A stretch of 60,928 nucleotides of DNA from positions 1 through 60,928 of IMG/VR virus record IMGVR_UViG_3300032315_000554, one strand, 5' to 3'. Origin of the DNA: a virus. A model generated the notes under the pieces. It was not told the DNA's origin. It searched no databases and saw only the letters and a list, made by a program, of their open reading frames with translations. Both the position numbers and the translations under genes were made by a program. How positions within the stretch are numbered: position 1 is the stretch's first letter; every line of letters starts with the position of its first letter. This document shows, in pieces, positions 8,089 through 29,976 of this stretch.

Positions 8089-8666
8089 TGATGTTCACAA
8101 AGTACGGTTCGATCCCGCATCACAAATACATCCTCGTCGATTCGAGCTTCACGCATGAGTCGCCGATAGGTTGGCAAGAAGCCATGTGGGTAGGAGTCAC
8201 ATCAATCCCCGGACGTGCGTGGGGACTAAACGTAGTGTTCCGGCTCGGCGGCATGCTTTACCGCAACGTGCCGCCGCATGCTGTCGCGTTCGCCCCGGAA
8301 CCCGAGTCGCTTTGGTGCGTGGACAACGCTCAGGCATGGAACTGCTACAGCGACCACTTCGTTGTCTACGACGATCCGGTGCTGTCCGGGATGAGGCTGA
8401 ACGCTAAGACATCCGCCGGGATCACTCCCGGTGAGTTCATGTTCGCCACTGGTCACATGCGTGACGGCTGGAGCGAGGCTCCCGAGCAGGACAAGATGTT
8501 CATGTGGTGCAGGCTCGACAACGGACGCCTGACGATTCAGCCAAACAATCACGTCACGTTTTTCGACTCGTCGTTCATCATCAATTGTTCGCCCACACCG
8601 AGGCTGCTGCTGCAGGAGACCTTCGCTCAGGTCGATGAGAAGCAGAACTACAAGTACGACTTCTAA
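8088..8666 (+). CDS. Unknown conserved-type phage protein, 192 aa
   Basis: ATG 8088 overlaps the previous TGA by one base; GTG 8085 and ATG 8091 are in-frame alternatives. The sequence is beta-rich, with many aromatic residues and a region of the form LYRNVPPHAVAF, then W-CYS-x2-F-VY, LDNGRLTIQPNN. I recall the same arrangement in phage proteins of unknown function that neighbour GP88. A small-molecule or protein binding beta-barrel is possible; no catalytic residues stand out. Confidence 0.7.
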   Translation: MMFTKYGSIPHHKYILVDSSFTHESPIGWQEAMWVGVTSIPGRAWGLNVVFRLGGMLYRNVPPHAVAFAPEPESLWCVDNAQAWNCYSDHFVVYDDPVLSGMRLNAKTSAGITPGEFMFATGHMRDGWSEAPEQDKMFMWCRLDNGRLTIQPNNHVTFFDSSFIINCSPTPRLLLQETFAQVDEKQNYKYDF

Positions 8667-9313
8667 TGATCCCGGCATTCACCAAGGTCAACAAGTACGT
8701 CTTTGATGACAAGGCGTACTCATGGTCGCTGCCGTCCGGGACCACATGCCCCGGCGCCGAGAAGTGTCTGGCTATAGCAGACAGGCACACCGGGAAGGTC
8801 TGGAACGGTCCAAAGCAGGAGTTCCGTTGCTACTCAGCGGTATACGAACGGTACCCGAGCGTACGCAATCGACTATGGTGCAACTTCGATGCCATCAAGG
8901 GCAAGACGCCTCATCAGGTCTGCTCGATCTTAGACCGTGCGAAGCCCCGGAAGATGGAACGGTGCCGCATCCACACTGCCGGGGACTTCTTCTCGCAGAC
9001 CTACTTCGACGGTTGGCTGCTCTTCGTCGAGGCCAACCCTGACATACACTTTTGGGCATTCACCAAGTCGCTTCCCTTTTGGGTCGCACGGCTTGGTCAG
9101 ATCCCCAAGAACCTGAACCTGCAGGCGTCCTGCGGGGGCCGACACGATCACCTGATCGCAATACATAACCTGAAGTTTGCCAAAGTAGTGTGGAGCGAGG
9201 ACACCGCTCAGCGGCTCGGGCTAGTCATCGACACCGATGACTACCTCGCCGCTTACGGTTCCAAACCCTTCGCGCTCTTGGAAAACTTCTCCAATAAGAA
9301 AACCAAAGTATGA
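8666..9313 (+). CDS. GP88 family protein (PF17338-like)
   Basis: 215 aa, one-base overlap with the preceding gene. It shows the family order: YSWSLPSGTTCPGA with C-x4-C, CYS-AVYERYPSVRNRLWCNF, a helix, then RCRIHTAGDFFSQ-Y, PDIHFWAFTKSLPFW, P-NLNLQASCGG. Conserved Cys, His, Asp and Arg residues suggest a metal- or nucleotide-dependent enzyme, but the family has no established activity that I can cite. Its position in the replication block suggests a DNA or nucleotide role. Confidence 0.8.
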   Translation: MIPAFTKVNKYVFDDKAYSWSLPSGTTCPGAEKCLAIADRHTGKVWNGPKQEFRCYSAVYERYPSVRNRLWCNFDAIKGKTPHQVCSILDRAKPRKMERCRIHTAGDFFSQTYFDGWLLFVEANPDIHFWAFTKSLPFWVARLGQIPKNLNLQASCGGRHDHLIAIHNLKFAKVVWSEDTAQRLGLVIDTDDYLAAYGSKPFALLENFSNKKTKV

Positions 9314-11976: not shown

Positions 11977-12459
11977 ATGAATCCCAACGCTCCAAAAGTC
12001 GGGCGACCTTCCTCATTCACTCAGCAACTCGCTGATGAAATATGTGAGCGTATCGCACTCGGTGAAACACTTCGTTCTATATGCTTGGATAATCACATCC
12101 CTGACAGAATCACCGTTCTCCGATGGCTAAAGAAGCATAACGATTTCCGCAACCAATACACGCAGGCGCGACTCGACCAAGCCGACACCTTCGCCGAAGA
12201 GATCATCGATATCGGTCGCACTGCAGGAGACGCTCAACTCGGTCGCCTTCAGATGGACGCACTCAAATGGGCGTCCTCGAAGATCGCTCCGAAGAAGTAC
12301 GGTGAGAAAGTCGAGCATGAAGTCAACGGATCTCAGAAGCTGAACCTGACGTTCACCATTGGCGGACGTGACGATACTGTGGACGGGGACTTTACCCTGA
12401 TGGACTCGAAGCCTGTTCCTGCTCTAGAATCCCCGGAGAACGATCATGCTGAGCCTTAA
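11977..12459 (+). CDS. terS: Terminase small subunit
   Basis: 160 aa. N-terminal GRPSSFTQQLADEICERIALGETLRSICLD, then a helix-turn-helix (ITVLRWLKKHNDFRNQYTQA), a helical central part with ADTFAEEIIDI and LKWASSKIAPKKYGEKV. This is the Sf6-like TerS pattern: DNA-binding N-terminus, oligomerising core, and a flexible tail that contacts the large subunit. An ACTCTGTCAATATTATAG stretch precedes it and may hold the promoter. A pyrimidine-rich tract fills 11873-11940. The packaging site is expected close by. Confidence 0.85.
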   Translation: MNPNAPKVGRPSSFTQQLADEICERIALGETLRSICLDNHIPDRITVLRWLKKHNDFRNQYTQARLDQADTFAEEIIDIGRTAGDAQLGRLQMDALKWASSKIAPKKYGEKVEHEVNGSQKLNLTFTIGGRDDTVDGDFTLMDSKPVPALESPENDHAEP

Positions 12460-12673
12460 ACGCATCGATGGACATATCGAGATCCACACTGATTTCGGTA
12501 TCGTCGGACCTCGCCTCGAACGAGGATCACCGTTCCCGAAGTTCCGGGACCGCTATCCTGACACCGCTGACGGCGAAGCTGAGGCAATGTTTGACATGGC
12601 GAAGATCGTCGAGTACATCGATCTGCATAACGACAAGAAACACAGCAGGTTGTACCGAAAGCGCCGTCCATAA
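12446..12673 (+). CDS. Unknown small protein, 75 aa
   Basis: ATG 12446 overlaps the end of terS by 14 bases. The sequence is acidic in the middle (DTADGEAEAMFDM) with a basic C-terminus (KKHSRLYRKRRP). No family recognised. Coupling to terS suggests a packaging-related or merely co-expressed role. Confidence 0.6.
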   Translation: MLSLKRIDGHIEIHTDFGIVGPRLERGSPFPKFRDRYPDTADGEAEAMFDMAKIVEYIDLHNDKKHSRLYRKRRP

Positions 12674-12694
12674 CACGATATAAGACCCATCATG

Positions 12695-12700
12695 TATAAT
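12695..12700 (+). promoter_or_regulatory. Perfect -10 box in the 190-bp gap
   Basis: TATAAT at 12695-12700 has no convincing -35 at the right distance. If used, transcription would begin near 12707 and include the whole structured element at 12759-12857 as the leader of the deaminase mRNA. Confidence 0.4.
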
Positions 12701-12758
12701 GGCTTGGAGCGTTCTATCATATTTCCAGCTATCACATAACACTGAAGATCAACACTTT

Positions 12759-12857
12759 GCTACGCTCGGGACCGATTCAACCGTTAATTGGACAGCTTCG
12801 TGGGGGAGTTGTCCGCGCCAACTAGTTGACCCCCGAGCGTAGCACCCCCCCTCCCCC
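12759..12857 (+). ncRNA. Candidate pseudoknotted leader RNA
   Basis: Three nested helices are visible: a 12-bp perfect stem GCTACGCTCGGG (12759-12770) with CCCGAGCGTAGC (12832-12843), a 5-bp stem TCAAC (12777-12781) with GTTGA (12825-12829), and a 5-bp stem GGACA (12790-12794) with TGTCC (12810-12814). The apical loop contains GGGGGAG (12802-12808), which is complementary to CTCCCCC (12851-12857), only six bases before the deaminase ATG. This could be a regulatory RNA, or DNA-level structure tied to packaging near terS. Confidence 0.6.
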
Positions 12858-12863
12858 CCTCCC

Positions 12864-13268
12864 ATGCTCTCTTGGCACCAGTACGCACTCAGCATCGCTC
12901 AGGCGGTCTCCCGGAAGAGCAAAGACCCTTGGCAGCAGGTCGGCGCCTGTATCCTCCGCCATGACAACTCAGTGGCGTCTGTCGGCTACAATGGCTTCCC
13001 GGCAGGCATGCCAGAGGACTGGAGCGACCGGGACGGTAGGAGGCGCTTCGTGGTGCATGCCGAGGCCAATGCGCTTCGCTACGTTCAGCCCGGAGACGCA
13101 TGGCTCCTCGCAAGCACACTGCTCCCCTGCAACGACTGTCTGCGCCTCATAGCGTCCTACCGCATCAGGACCATCGTGTACGGAGACACCTATGCGCTCG
13201 ACAACTCTACGCATGAACTAGCGTCAGCCTTCGACATAGAACTGATCCACATGCCACACTTCAAATGA
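12864..13268 (+). CDS. Deoxycytidylate deaminase family
   Basis: 134 aa. Zinc site residues are H65 in HAEANAL, with the catalytic E67, and C89 and C92 in PCNDC, the standard dCMP/CMP deaminase layout. It would convert dCMP to dUMP, feeding dTMP synthesis for phage DNA, or modify the nucleotide pool. The length matches short phage dCMP deaminases. The ATG is preceded by an unusual C-rich tract with no ribosome-binding site, which may be sequestered by the structured leader. Confidence 0.85.
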   Translation: MLSWHQYALSIAQAVSRKSKDPWQQVGACILRHDNSVASVGYNGFPAGMPEDWSDRDGRRRFVVHAEANALRYVQPGDAWLLASTLLPCNDCLRLIASYRIRTIVYGDTYALDNSTHELASAFDIELIHMPHFK

Positions 13269-14469: not shown

Positions 14470-14943
14470 ATGGCAAACATCGATATTCAGAGTAATCTTT
14501 CTACAGCAAAGTTCAGGCAGTCTGTTTTGCAGGAACTTGTGAGCGGTCTCACTATTAGTGGCTCAACGACTCCGATTCCCGTTACGTTGCGAACGGATTC
14601 TAGCGGGTATAAGCTATTCCATAAAGCGCAGTCTGCAGCATCTACAAATGCTACAGTTGTTAAATCAGCGCCTGCTTCAATTGGGTTACTCTCGATGTTT
14701 CATGCTAGTGGTTCAGGTGGCAGTAAGTTTGTAAAAATCTACAACAAGGCAACAACTCCAACAGCTTCAGACGTTCCAATTTTCACGTTTGTGATTCGCC
14801 CAAATGAAACTATTAACATCGTTCCTGCCATTCCTTTCTTTTTTGACCAAGGTTTGTCATATCGCATGACGGCTAACTATGCAGACTCAGATAATACGGG
14901 TGTAGCTGCAGGCGAGCTTGCGATTAATGTGGCTTATGCTTGA
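14470..14943 (+). CDS. Probable virion surface or decoration protein, 157 aa
   Basis: Beta-rich, Ser/Thr/Gly-rich protein with the pattern LLSMFHASGSGGSKFVKIYN, IFTFVIRPNETINI and FFDQGLSYRMTANYADSDNT, which I recognise from phage structural proteins with a compact beta-sandwich. Base use is clearly more AT-rich than the flanking small genes and terL, and an AT-rich gap with a TATAAA precedes it, suggesting separate origin and its own promoter. Its place between terS and terL is odd for a virion protein. Confidence 0.6.
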   Translation: MANIDIQSNLSTAKFRQSVLQELVSGLTISGSTTPIPVTLRTDSSGYKLFHKAQSAASTNATVVKSAPASIGLLSMFHASGSGGSKFVKIYNKATTPTASDVPIFTFVIRPNETINIVPAIPFFFDQGLSYRMTANYADSDNTGVAAGELAINVAYA

Positions 14944-16814
14944 TGGAGATAACTAAGTCAGTAGAGAACGCGATTCGTCTGGCGTCGAGGATCAGGCAGG
15001 AGGCCGAGCGGAGCGACGAGGATGGCGTGGTCTATGCAGCGGCTTACATCATGCAGCATGCGTCGAAGCCGTCTGGCAAGCAGACGGTGACGCTCGACGA
15101 GAAGGAGGCGAGGGCGATTGTGCTGCAGTTTGTTCAGCACCTGTTGGACAAGGACCAGTTCGAGGCGGCGGCTACGATTCTTTGGGGCGAGCAGGTGTAC
15201 GACTGGAGGCCGAGCAGCGCACGGGACGCATGGCGGTGCCTGTTCGAGAACGACAAGCTACTTATTCAGGGGGCGGGAGCGATGGGAAAGACGTTCAATG
15301 CGGCGGCATGGTTCCTCTTGGACTGGATGCGAGACCCGTACTACACCTGCATCAAAGTGGTCTCGCTGACCGAGGCGCATGCTCAGCGCAACGTGTTTGC
15401 TGCCATTAAGAACTTTTATAGGACAGCACTGGTGAAGCCCGAGTACGAGGGGGGCGAGGAGTTGGTGAAGTCGATTCAGGCGAACGACGATGACAAGAAC
15501 GGGATCCACTTGGTGGCGGTGCCGAAGGGAGACAGCGGAACGGGAACGCTGCGCGGCTTTCACCCGGCGCCGAGGGCAGGCAAGCCGCACCCGAGGTGGG
15601 GAGTGATGAGCAGGACGCATGTGGTGCTCGACGAGGCGGAGGAGGTGCCAGCAGGCGTCTGGGAAGGCTTGCAGAACATCCTGTCGGCGGCGGACACCGA
15701 GGGCGCAAAAGGTCGCATTAAGATTTTCGGAGCGTCGAACCCGAAGGACAGGACGAGTGAATTCGGGAAGCGGTGCGAGCCTGAGCGTGGGTGGCCGAGC
15801 GTGGACTGCGAAGATGACTTTGAGTGGGACAGCAGGGAGGGGTGGCATGTGCTGAGGCTGGATGCGGCGAGGTGCGAGAACGTGACCGAGAAGAAGATTA
15901 TCTTCCCCGGCTTCCAGACGTACGAGGGGTACATGGCGTACGAGGCCAAGGGCAAGACGGCAGAATATTACACGATGGCTCGGGGATTCTTTCCTCAGGA
16001 AGGCATCAGCATGGCGATTATCACGCCAGCGATGATGGACAACTCGGTGGGCATCGCACGGTTCATTGGCCCGGTGGTCCCGCTCGCGGCTTTCGATCTG
16101 GCGCTGGAGGGCAACGATCAGGTGCTGTGCAGCTACGGTCGCTACGGTCTGTCGGACGGATGGACGCCGAGGAGCGGGAAGTTCATCCAGTTCAAAACGC
16201 CGAGGACGGTGTTGCAGTTGGACAGTCAGATATCTTTTCCAAAGAAGCCTACGCTGGAGCAGACGCAAGCGATCATAAGGTTCTGCAAACAGATGCGTAT
16301 TGCACCAAATTGGTTGTGCGTGGACAGGACGGGTAACGGCGCCGGGATTCACGATGCATTATGCAGTCTTTTTGGATCTGAGGTGATGGGCGTGAATTAT
16401 AGCTGGGCGGCTTCAGAGACGCATATACTTGGAGACGATAGTCAGAGGGCGAACGAGTTGTACAGTGGGGTGGTGACCGAATTGGTCTTTGGCTTGGCGA
16501 AGTATCTGGAGTTTGAGTACCTGAAGATTTCGCCCGGATTCGGCAACGACGAACTGGTTAAGCAGGCAATCGGGCGAAGGTACAAGCAGCAAGGCAAGGG
16601 ACTGGTGCGTGTCGAGAGCAAGGCTGACTATGTGAAGCGGACGAGGCAGCACAGTCCTGACTCGTTAGACTCGCTGTCTTTATTGGTATATTTGATGCGT
16701 CAACGTGCCGGGGCGGTGGCAACGATGACCGAGCCGAAGCCTGAACCCGTGTTGCGCCGGGAGAGAAACTTGGGATACATAGACAAATTAGAGTTTGTAG
16801 ATTTCAGCGAATAA
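14943..16814 (+). CDS. terL: Terminase large subunit
   Basis: 623 aa; ATG 14943 overlaps the previous TGA by one base. ATPase motor: Walker A IQGAGAMGKT (about 108-117) and Walker B HVVLDEAEEV (about 226-234), with the catalytic Glu in DEAEE, then a coupling segment GASNPKD. Nuclease domain: AAFDLAL (D near 384), CVDRTGNG (D near 461) and a C-terminal DSLDSL. It packages DNA into the prohead with terS and cuts it by a headful or site-specific mechanism. Confidence 0.9.
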   Translation: MEITKSVENAIRLASRIRQEAERSDEDGVVYAAAYIMQHASKPSGKQTVTLDEKEARAIVLQFVQHLLDKDQFEAAATILWGEQVYDWRPSSARDAWRCLFENDKLLIQGAGAMGKTFNAAAWFLLDWMRDPYYTCIKVVSLTEAHAQRNVFAAIKNFYRTALVKPEYEGGEELVKSIQANDDDKNGIHLVAVPKGDSGTGTLRGFHPAPRAGKPHPRWGVMSRTHVVLDEAEEVPAGVWEGLQNILSAADTEGAKGRIKIFGASNPKDRTSEFGKRCEPERGWPSVDCEDDFEWDSREGWHVLRLDAARCENVTEKKIIFPGFQTYEGYMAYEAKGKTAEYYTMARGFFPQEGISMAIITPAMMDNSVGIARFIGPVVPLAAFDLALEGNDQVLCSYGRYGLSDGWTPRSGKFIQFKTPRTVLQLDSQISFPKKPTLEQTQAIIRFCKQMRIAPNWLCVDRTGNGAGIHDALCSLFGSEVMGVNYSWAASETHILGDDSQRANELYSGVVTELVFGLAKYLEFEYLKISPGFGNDELVKQAIGRRYKQQGKGLVRVESKADYVKRTRQHSPDSLDSLSLLVYLMRQRAGAVATMTEPKPEPVLRRERNLGYIDKLEFVDFSE

Positions 16815-27663: not shown

Positions 27664-29976
27664 ATGAGCAGTCCTAGTATTTTAGATACAGCGGAGTATC
27701 GTAAATTGGCGCTTATTGCTGCTGGAGTGAACCTTTCCTCTATTCCTCCAATACTAGATACAGCAACTTGGCGACATCTTATGCTTGCCGCTCTGTATGA
27801 AATCGGCAGCGGCGGAGGAGGAGGAGGAGGATATATTAATGGTATAGTCAATACTTATAACGACTTGCCAGTGACGATAGGAACACCTGCAATCAATTCA
27901 GTTTATCTTGTGCGATTTTCCACAGGAATATGGCTAATCAACAGACACCCGGCTGGACTGTATATTCGTATATCCGATTTGGGAAATTTAGACGATTGGG
28001 AATATCTAGGAACATTTCCTGAGGTTCAGTCAGACTCGCGCTGGCGAGTTTATAATGAAGCCGCCCCAACTAAGGAAGTTGCTCTGGATGTCAGCGGGGT
28101 AACCTCAGGGGTCACAAGAACTTTATCCGTACCGAATGCGTCTGGTCGCATCCAAGTCGAGGGCCAGCCAATAGGAAACACCGCGCCAGCCGCAGGCACC
28201 TTCACCACCCTCACCGCGAACACCTCTCTTGCCGTAGCAGGCGGAATTATCACTGGCGCATCAAACGTCATTGAGATGGTCAATGCAAGCAACACACAAA
28301 CATTTCGCATCTACAGCAGTTTTTCATTAGCTAACATTTTTTCTCGGCTGTCGATTCGCGGTGCAAATCCATTTAGCGGCAACCACATCATTGCGACTGA
28401 AAAGGGAACCAGTGGCGGCGCGGCAAAGGGACTTGATCTTCAGACTGACAGCGTTACACGCTTGACGTTAGGCGAAACTGGAGGGGTGACGGTAGCCAGC
28501 GGCAACCTCGTTGTCACAGACAACACGGGAGGCGAAACCGCAACCTTCGACGCGCAGAATAAGCTGACGGCAAATCGGACGTATAATCTGCCTAATGCCA
28601 CTGGAACTATCGCGCTTAACGAAACCTTCGCCGCCCCGCCAGCCATCGGCAGCACCACGCCAGCCGCCGGATCGTTTACGACTTTGAGCGCGAGCGATTA
28701 CCTCACCGCATCCAACGCAACGGCCAGCCCACCGACAACTCTTACAGCGGCGAGAGGTATTCAATGGTCTGGTCTGGGCGGCACTTTTTCCAACACTGCG
28801 TCGATCTACGGATCATACAACGGCGGAATTCCGACTTTCGGAATCGGCACAGGAGCGTCAGCTGGTTCCACGACAGAAATCGCAGCGTTCAACTCAAGCG
28901 GTATTACTTTTAATAATGTGCTCAACATTCCAGACGGCTCCAGAACCGCGCTACCCTTCCGCTTCACCAGCGAAACCAACAACGGATTTTATCGTCGAGG
29001 CGCAAACACGCTGACTTTTGTGAACGGCGGCAGCAATCGCTTTGAGATCAGCGGAACGCAAGTTCGTTTGGAGGTCAACCAGAGCTTTGGTTGGGTTTCC
29101 AACGATTTAACTGGTTCAATAGATTTGAATTTTGTTCGTGATGCCGCCGATACCCTCGGTCAACGCCGTGGTTTAGTTGCCCAGCGTTACAACCTCTACG
29201 GCACATTCACCAGCACCACGAATTTTGAACGTCTGTTTCTGGACTACAACGCCACAGCGTTAGCCTTCCGTATCGGCACGGAGAAGGGAACCAGTGGATC
29301 TGCGAGGGCGTTGGAGTTTCAGACGGATGGGGTGACGAGGATGACGCTTGGCGCAACTGGAATTTTCACCTATAGCGCGGCTGCAACTTTCAACGTCAAT
29401 ACCACTGGTTCTGGGAACAATACGTTAACTCTTGATAATGGCGGGACGGCTGGCTCGGCGAGGATGCTTGTTGGTGCTGGAGGATCACATAGTCAAACGA
29501 TAACAATGGACCCTCGCGGGGTAAGCACAGGACAGCCCACGATAAATGCCGCTTCTAATCCAGCATGGCTTCATCTTCAAACGGGAGCGACCACTCGTTT
29601 AAGTCTTGGCCCAAGCGAGGCCAATTTTACCGTGCCAATCATTCGCATCGGCGGCACAACCAGTCTTTTCCCCGCGCTGAAGCGCAGCAGCACAACGCTG
29701 CAAGTGAGGCTGGCGGATGATACCGACTTCGCCCCGCTCTCCTGCGGTGCCTTGACCCTCAACGGCAACCTCGACGCCTCCACGCGAAACATTGTCACCG
29801 ACACCACAACAGGAACCAAGATCGGCACGGCAACCACGCAGAAGATCGGGTTCTTCAACGCAACGCCTGTAGTGCAGCCGACCGCCGTGGCAGACGCAAC
29901 GGACGCCGCAACCGTGATTACTCAACTCAACGCCTTGCTTGCGCGTGTGCGAACACTCGGCCTCATCGCCAACTAA
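27664..29976 (+). CDS. Tail fibre protein with internal repeats
   Basis: 770 aa. The N-terminal 130 residues contain a G-rich hinge (SGGGGGGGY) and an attachment-like domain. The middle is Ser/Thr/Gly-rich beta-repeat sequence with two visible repeats: GTAPAAG-type TFTTLTA/SFTTLSA units, and EKGTSGGAAKGLDLQTDSVT matched by EKGTSGSARALEFQTDGVT. The C-terminus has TKIGTATTQKIGFFNATPVV, a common phage fibre-end motif, then a trimerising helix. Likely receptor-binding fibre or part of its shaft. Confidence 0.8.
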   Translation: MSSPSILDTAEYRKLALIAAGVNLSSIPPILDTATWRHLMLAALYEIGSGGGGGGGYINGIVNTYNDLPVTIGTPAINSVYLVRFSTGIWLINRHPAGLYIRISDLGNLDDWEYLGTFPEVQSDSRWRVYNEAAPTKEVALDVSGVTSGVTRTLSVPNASGRIQVEGQPIGNTAPAAGTFTTLTANTSLAVAGGIITGASNVIEMVNASNTQTFRIYSSFSLANIFSRLSIRGANPFSGNHIIATEKGTSGGAAKGLDLQTDSVTRLTLGETGGVTVASGNLVVTDNTGGETATFDAQNKLTANRTYNLPNATGTIALNETFAAPPAIGSTTPAAGSFTTLSASDYLTASNATASPPTTLTAARGIQWSGLGGTFSNTASIYGSYNGGIPTFGIGTGASAGSTTEIAAFNSSGITFNNVLNIPDGSRTALPFRFTSETNNGFYRRGANTLTFVNGGSNRFEISGTQVRLEVNQSFGWVSNDLTGSIDLNFVRDAADTLGQRRGLVAQRYNLYGTFTSTTNFERLFLDYNATALAFRIGTEKGTSGSARALEFQTDGVTRMTLGATGIFTYSAAATFNVNTTGSGNNTLTLDNGGTAGSARMLVGAGGSHSQTITMDPRGVSTGQPTINAASNPAWLHLQTGATTRLSLGPSEANFTVPIIRIGGTTSLFPALKRSSTTLQVRLADDTDFAPLSCGALTLNGNLDASTRNIVTDTTTGTKIGTATTQKIGFFNATPVVQPTAVADATDAATVITQLNALLARVRTLGLIAN

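Follow-up and report, generated by a model that had tools for sequence, protein, structure and literature searches.

A covarying structured RNA beside the terminase genes of an uncultivated phage clade, possibly a cis-acting leader

To our knowledge, RNA-only control of a phage operon is known from very few cases, and the put RNA of HK022 is the classic one. The put RNA is a structured nascent RNA of about 70-90 nt that binds the zinc-binding domain of the RNA polymerase beta' subunit and acts on the polymerase without a dedicated protein. It comprises two stem-loops and occurs in two copies (putL and putR) at the early promoters of the lambdoid phage, with putL just downstream of its promoter and ahead of the phage operon (PMC9378689). 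Here, we analysed a virus record of 60,928 bp (this whole stretch is called the window), in which positions 12758-12844 of the + strand encode a structured RNA that is real and conserved. Like HK022 put, it is a structured RNA independent of which gene comes next; unlike put, it has a single composite stem that carries a G-rich loop, and it lies beside terminase genes. Rather than the two adjacent stem-loops of put, most copies carry a single element, and a second hairpin was found only in two of them (L058 and L112). By analogy, we consider the HK022 put RNA the nearest working parallel and claim no membership in the put family.

Two further systems were compared. The packaging RNA of phi29 is a phage RNA with loop-based pairing, and it serves a different terminase type from the one encoded here. 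The element shares the likeness of a phage RNA with loop-based pairing and is tied to packaging genes by its position; we know of no fold common to the two. In pseudoknotted translational riboswitches (preQ1 and similar), a hairpin loop pairs with a 3' tail near the start codon. The element may form a similar contact between its hairpin loop and a 3' tail close to a start codon; unlike these riboswitches, it has no aptamer signature and no Rfam match, and it is not tied to a metabolic gene.

For the fold, positions 12740-12880 were compared with dinucleotide shuffles. The + strand gave an energy of -47.6 kcal/mol and a z-score of -3.3, whereas the opposite strand reached a z-score of -0.45 only. 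All features described below lie on the + strand unless stated otherwise. The outer helix, P1, pairs 12758-12770 (TGCTACGCTCGGG) with 12832-12844 (CCCGAGCGTAGCA) according to the fold, the alignments, and the covariation. In the window, P1 is a perfect helix of 13 bp and the longest perfect arm pair of the whole window; shuffled sequence contained 0.3 arm pairs of at least 12 bp per 61 kb. An optional helix between TCAAC (12777-12781) and GTTGA (12825-12829) was folded in the window, L059, and L112, and the other copies do not form it the same way. The P2 hairpin, obtained from the fold and the covariance model, pairs 12790-12799 with 12805-12814 (GGAGTTGTCC) in 10 bp, or 11 bp when 12789 and 12815 are included; GGACA (12790-12794) and TGTCC (12810-12814) form its lower part. 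The fold leaves a G-rich apical loop, GTGGG (12800-12804), which is a GGGG tetraloop in most other copies and has five bases in L061. P2 is followed on its 3' side by a conserved joint, GCGCC (12815-12819), whose CGCC is present in 9/11 distinct copies. A pyrimidine tail, a possible partner of the G loop, occupies 12845-12863 and runs to the ATG; in all 11 copies the tail starts with five pyrimidines, after an A in one subgroup. The copies therefore share one plan: P1 of about 13 bp, often an A-rich 5' joint, P2 with an apical G run, GCGCC or a variant right after P2, the returning P1 strand, and a pyrimidine run. The initial annotation had described three nested helices at this place. All three were recovered, the outer one with 13 bp instead of 12 and the third one extended to 10-11 bp. 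It had also located GGGGGAG at 12802-12808, CTCCCCC at 12851-12857, the ATG at 12864, and TATAAT at 12695-12700, and these coordinates were correct. On the minus strand, 12845-12863 reads GGGAGGGGGGGAGGGGGGG, a potential G-quadruplex that the other copies do not keep.

The structure is judged genuine because homologues carry compensatory changes. Model R1 was built from a plain MAFFT alignment of four relatives, with the window left out. In this alignment, two-sided compensatory changes were found in 11/23 pairs, 98.9% of the cells pair, and slid registers all fell far short of the true one; the covariance check in related phages proposed by the initial annotation was thus answered in favour of the stems, which are kept. 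Against the window, R1 gave a single match in 61 kb, the element itself, with E = 1.6e-22, a value that is rough, like all E-values of the model by the tool's own statement. R1 further detected a second subgroup, with a shorter element, at the corresponding genomic position (E = 0.002-0.009 in 576 kb), and this subgroup, aligned separately, had two-sided changes in 5/13 pairs of P1. An initial MAFFT alignment that covered every copy placed P1 of the short subgroup wrongly, and the pair counts do not draw on it. In alignments fitted to the structure, and therefore biased in its favour, two-sided changes rose to 22/23 pairs with 9 copies and 23/23 with 12 distinct rows including L171. The L171 row is a probable copy at 8716-8780 (E 5e-4) that could equally be a terminator. 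Among the pair cells, G-U occurred 19 times and A-C 3 times; therefore, it is the sense transcript that folds, and a structure at the DNA level is disfavoured. A further match of model R2, at 27730-27792 of G024 (E 0.02), was a terminator-like nested hairpin and was left uncounted.

In the GenBank phage collection, neither a DNA search with the region nor a tblastn search with the terminase large subunit (TerL) returned a relative. In IMG/VR, 305 stretches encode a relative of the TerL fragment, which indicates a large uncultivated clade, and the best 80 of the 305 were fetched. Copies were gathered by scans with the deaminase, the terminase small subunit (TerS), TerL, the element-containing ORF, and an upstream box described below. 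As a result, 11 distinct copies were obtained in 17 contigs, window included, all from one uncultivated phage clade; truly independent lineages are few: the two subgroups and, as an uncertain addition to the 11, the copy in L171. Each genome has one copy at the same genomic place, and the 61 kb of the window contained no further one. Model R2 found a copy in 12/39 whole records, one per genome, and missed the L061 type, of which a later search gave three further records. A scan with a conserved 17-mer found nothing beyond two already known contigs, and TerL alignment scans, whose seed patterns were poor, gave no matches. The box pattern had no match in the genome contigs, and accordingly neither a host nor a prophage was identified. 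For a GP88-like protein of the window (8666-9313), the best GenBank matches came from Synechococcus phages, at about 40%.

The whole window was also confronted with Rfam 15, which returned tRNA only; the element alone, with E up to 10, gave chance matches, the best of them on the opposite strand (E 2.7). No Rfam match indicated a self-cleaving ribozyme, and no slippery site for a frameshift or bypass element was seen by eye. The earlier view of an RNA with no described counterpart holds against Rfam, in which no family matches. The element is thus a structured RNA with strong covariation outside the Rfam families, in a clade for which the GenBank phage collection yielded no close relative.

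The position of the element is constant, while the next gene varies. In the window, the terminase small subunit gene terS (11977-12459; PF20901 E 2.7e-36, phrog_1482 E 8e-43) is followed by a 75-aa ORF (12446-12673), the end of which marks the element position in the clade comparison. A dCMP deaminase (12864-13268; PF00383 E 2e-16, phrog_174 E 5e-33) happens to come next, and TerL is encoded further downstream (14940-16814; phrog_2 E 6e-9). Wherever examined, the element comes after the 75-aa ORF beside terS. The deaminase is the next gene in 3/11 distinct copies (window, L059, and L060). In two copies, L058 and L112, a second hairpin precedes an unrelated MYIVIR-type ORF, and the deaminase of L112 is found two genes further on. 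The remaining six (L120, L122, L146, L098, L149, and L061) lie inside the 5' part of another ORF, whose length is constant at 106 aa though the length of the element varies by 6 nt. In L120 (1650-2000) and its relatives, the RNA lies in frame within the 5' portion of the 106-aa ORF, and the L112 homologue of this ORF does not have that N-terminal part. Such embedding of the same RNA in an ORF in one subgroup is unusual. The second hairpin (TTTGCTTCCGG...CCGGAAGCA) stands in tandem behind the element at 3683-3744 of L058 and 1865-1925 of L112; it has TTTGCT/AGCA ends as in the element and a different interior.

Upstream, alignment and scans revealed a conserved promoter-like box of 32 bp (12669-12700, CATAACACGATATAAGACCCATCATGTATAAT) with a TATAAT-like hexamer at its end. 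It lies about 58 nt upstream of the element, aligns upstream of all 11 distinct copies, and occurs only once in the window, where it scores 37.3 and the runner-up site 9.4. A standard -35 is absent, and the promoter scan did not select the box; from its resemblance and conservation only, we infer that it is a promoter. Scanning IMG/VR with the box pattern resulted in single matches in 14 contigs, 12 from the RNA-bearing clade and two others, L171 and L174, from phages otherwise different in gene content. In both (658-840 of L171 and 2512-2690 of L174), the same box precedes CGACC-GGGGGGGCGGG-GGTCG, a hairpin that contains seven consecutive G, and then six consecutive C (CCCCCC). Downstream of the box and the G-run hairpin, L171 has a replication-initiation O-like gene, and L174 encodes a DnaB-like helicase at a greater distance.

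Our preferred reading, with a probability of roughly 0.45, is that the element heads a phage transcription unit as a structured leader RNA that acts in cis, possibly in a put-like manner. We favour the transcript or RNA polymerase as its target because the location, orientation, and upstream box do not change from copy to copy, whereas the next gene does. Transcription would start at the conserved box (12669-12700), and the nascent RNA would fold into P1 and P2 some 50 nt further on, with the G-rich loop possibly docking on the pyrimidine tail. The target would then be the transcript or the transcribing polymerase rather than the start codon of one gene, and we infer that transcription is what the element controls. 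In the simplest outcome, the polymerase would thereby be able to continue into the genes for packaging and morphogenesis, as with HK022 put RNA; alternatively, the same leader would set the fate of the transcript 5' end. The recurrence of the box with a G-run hairpin and C run in L171 and L174, in L171 ahead of the replication-initiator gene, supports the leader reading. The six copies inside an ORF count against it because ribosomes would unfold the element there. A bolder version, which we consider speculative and rather doubtful, is a new family of RNA-only transcription control. A fixed promoter box and a G-loop RNA would modify the polymerase or time the late operon without a phage protein, would be reused at the replication operon of other phages, and would tolerate translation as the start of an ORF. 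If true, this independent RNA-only case would suggest that phages invented such control more than once, and it would provide a compact promoter-plus-RNA part.

The main rival is translational control through the C-rich start region, in which the G loop would pair with the C-rich stretch beside the start codon and block or time initiation, with no nucleotide sensing. The initial annotation had taken GGGGGAG (12802-12808) as a loop that pairs with CTCCCCC. The sequence is there, but its GGAG (12805-12808) belongs to the 3' strand of the conserved P2 and is paired there, and the 7-bp pseudoknot is not supported because four conserved P2 pairs compete with it. A shorter contact of 3-4 bp between the G loop and the C tail is compatible with P2 and plausible, and can be drawn in most copies. 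The loop G's are invariant across copies; because they never vary, the contact is beyond the reach of covariation. CCCC occurs within the 9-nt tail of 7/11 distinct copies, compared with about 1-2% of 9-nt windows; the other four have weaker C/U tails, three of them with CCCC upstream of P1 and the fourth, L060, with CCC in the tail. This distribution of C runs fits a G-loop/C-run contact, which itself is putative. In the window, L059, and L060, the tail runs directly up to the deaminase ATG, the six-copy subgroup has another CCCC run just before an upstream CATATG start, and overall a C run adjoins a start codon in 9/11 copies, as translational control would predict. Nevertheless, the tail of L112 and L058 leads to the second hairpin with no start nearby, and its duplex with the loop is weak (-3.1 and -3.5 kcal/mol); together with the invariant loop G's and the conflict of the 7-bp helix with P2, this makes translational control possible but unlikely. 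The deaminase start had been called SD-less, which is nothing special here: by eye, many gene starts in the start list of the window have no obvious Shine-Dalgarno sequence.

The long near-perfect stems of every copy and the site near the predicted 5' end would also suit a processing or stability element, with P1 and P2 (about 23 bp with an internal loop) as an RNase III substrate or a 5' stabiliser of late mRNA. Such a role needs no conserved loop G's, GCGCC, or pyrimidine tail, and we consider it improbable. A strong stem with a pyrimidine tail, U-rich in L060 (CCCUUUUUC) and L058 (UCUCUUUUC), recalls an attenuator or intrinsic terminator, and R2 also picked the terminator-like hairpin of G024. 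However, an intrinsic terminator combines a GC-rich hairpin with a U tract, and the window tail is CCCCCCCTCCCCCCCTCCC; C-rich tails with no U tract were likewise found in L059, L120, L122, L098, and L061. The element was also missing from the output of the terminator scan, whose loop limit of 8 would exclude it anyway. Termination is thus very unlikely, and we give as little weight to a packaging element, either a pac/cos-associated structure or a motor RNA with a role like that of phi29 pRNA. The element does adjoin terS upstream of terL in the clade copies, and another terL follows the probable copy in L171 at a distance of about 700 nt, but the G-U pairs on one strand point to RNA, not DNA. 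In addition, R2 found no copy in sampled phages with TerL 75-79% identical and a similar packaging enzyme, and we know of no RNA partner for this terminase type.

The leader reading retains from the initial annotation a cis-acting regulatory RNA with sense-strand structure, a conserved box, and no Rfam match, but not the proposed pyrimidine-nucleotide switch of the dCMP deaminase. This riboswitch owes its appeal to the window and two close relatives, in which the element adjoins the deaminase. Clade deaminases are 53-67% identical, and most start within or right behind coding DNA with no element, which elsewhere precedes or overlaps unrelated genes. Gene context across the clade thus argues against a deaminase switch, and nucleotide sensing is hardly credible. 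The literature search pairing dCMP deaminase with riboswitches found nothing relevant. In two other phages, about 580 nt of apparently non-coding, strongly folding sequence lie directly upstream of a dCMP deaminase (2332-2910 of L005 and 2204-2771 of L004). These stretches match no Rfam family, are 82% identical, and possibly represent a different large structured RNA.
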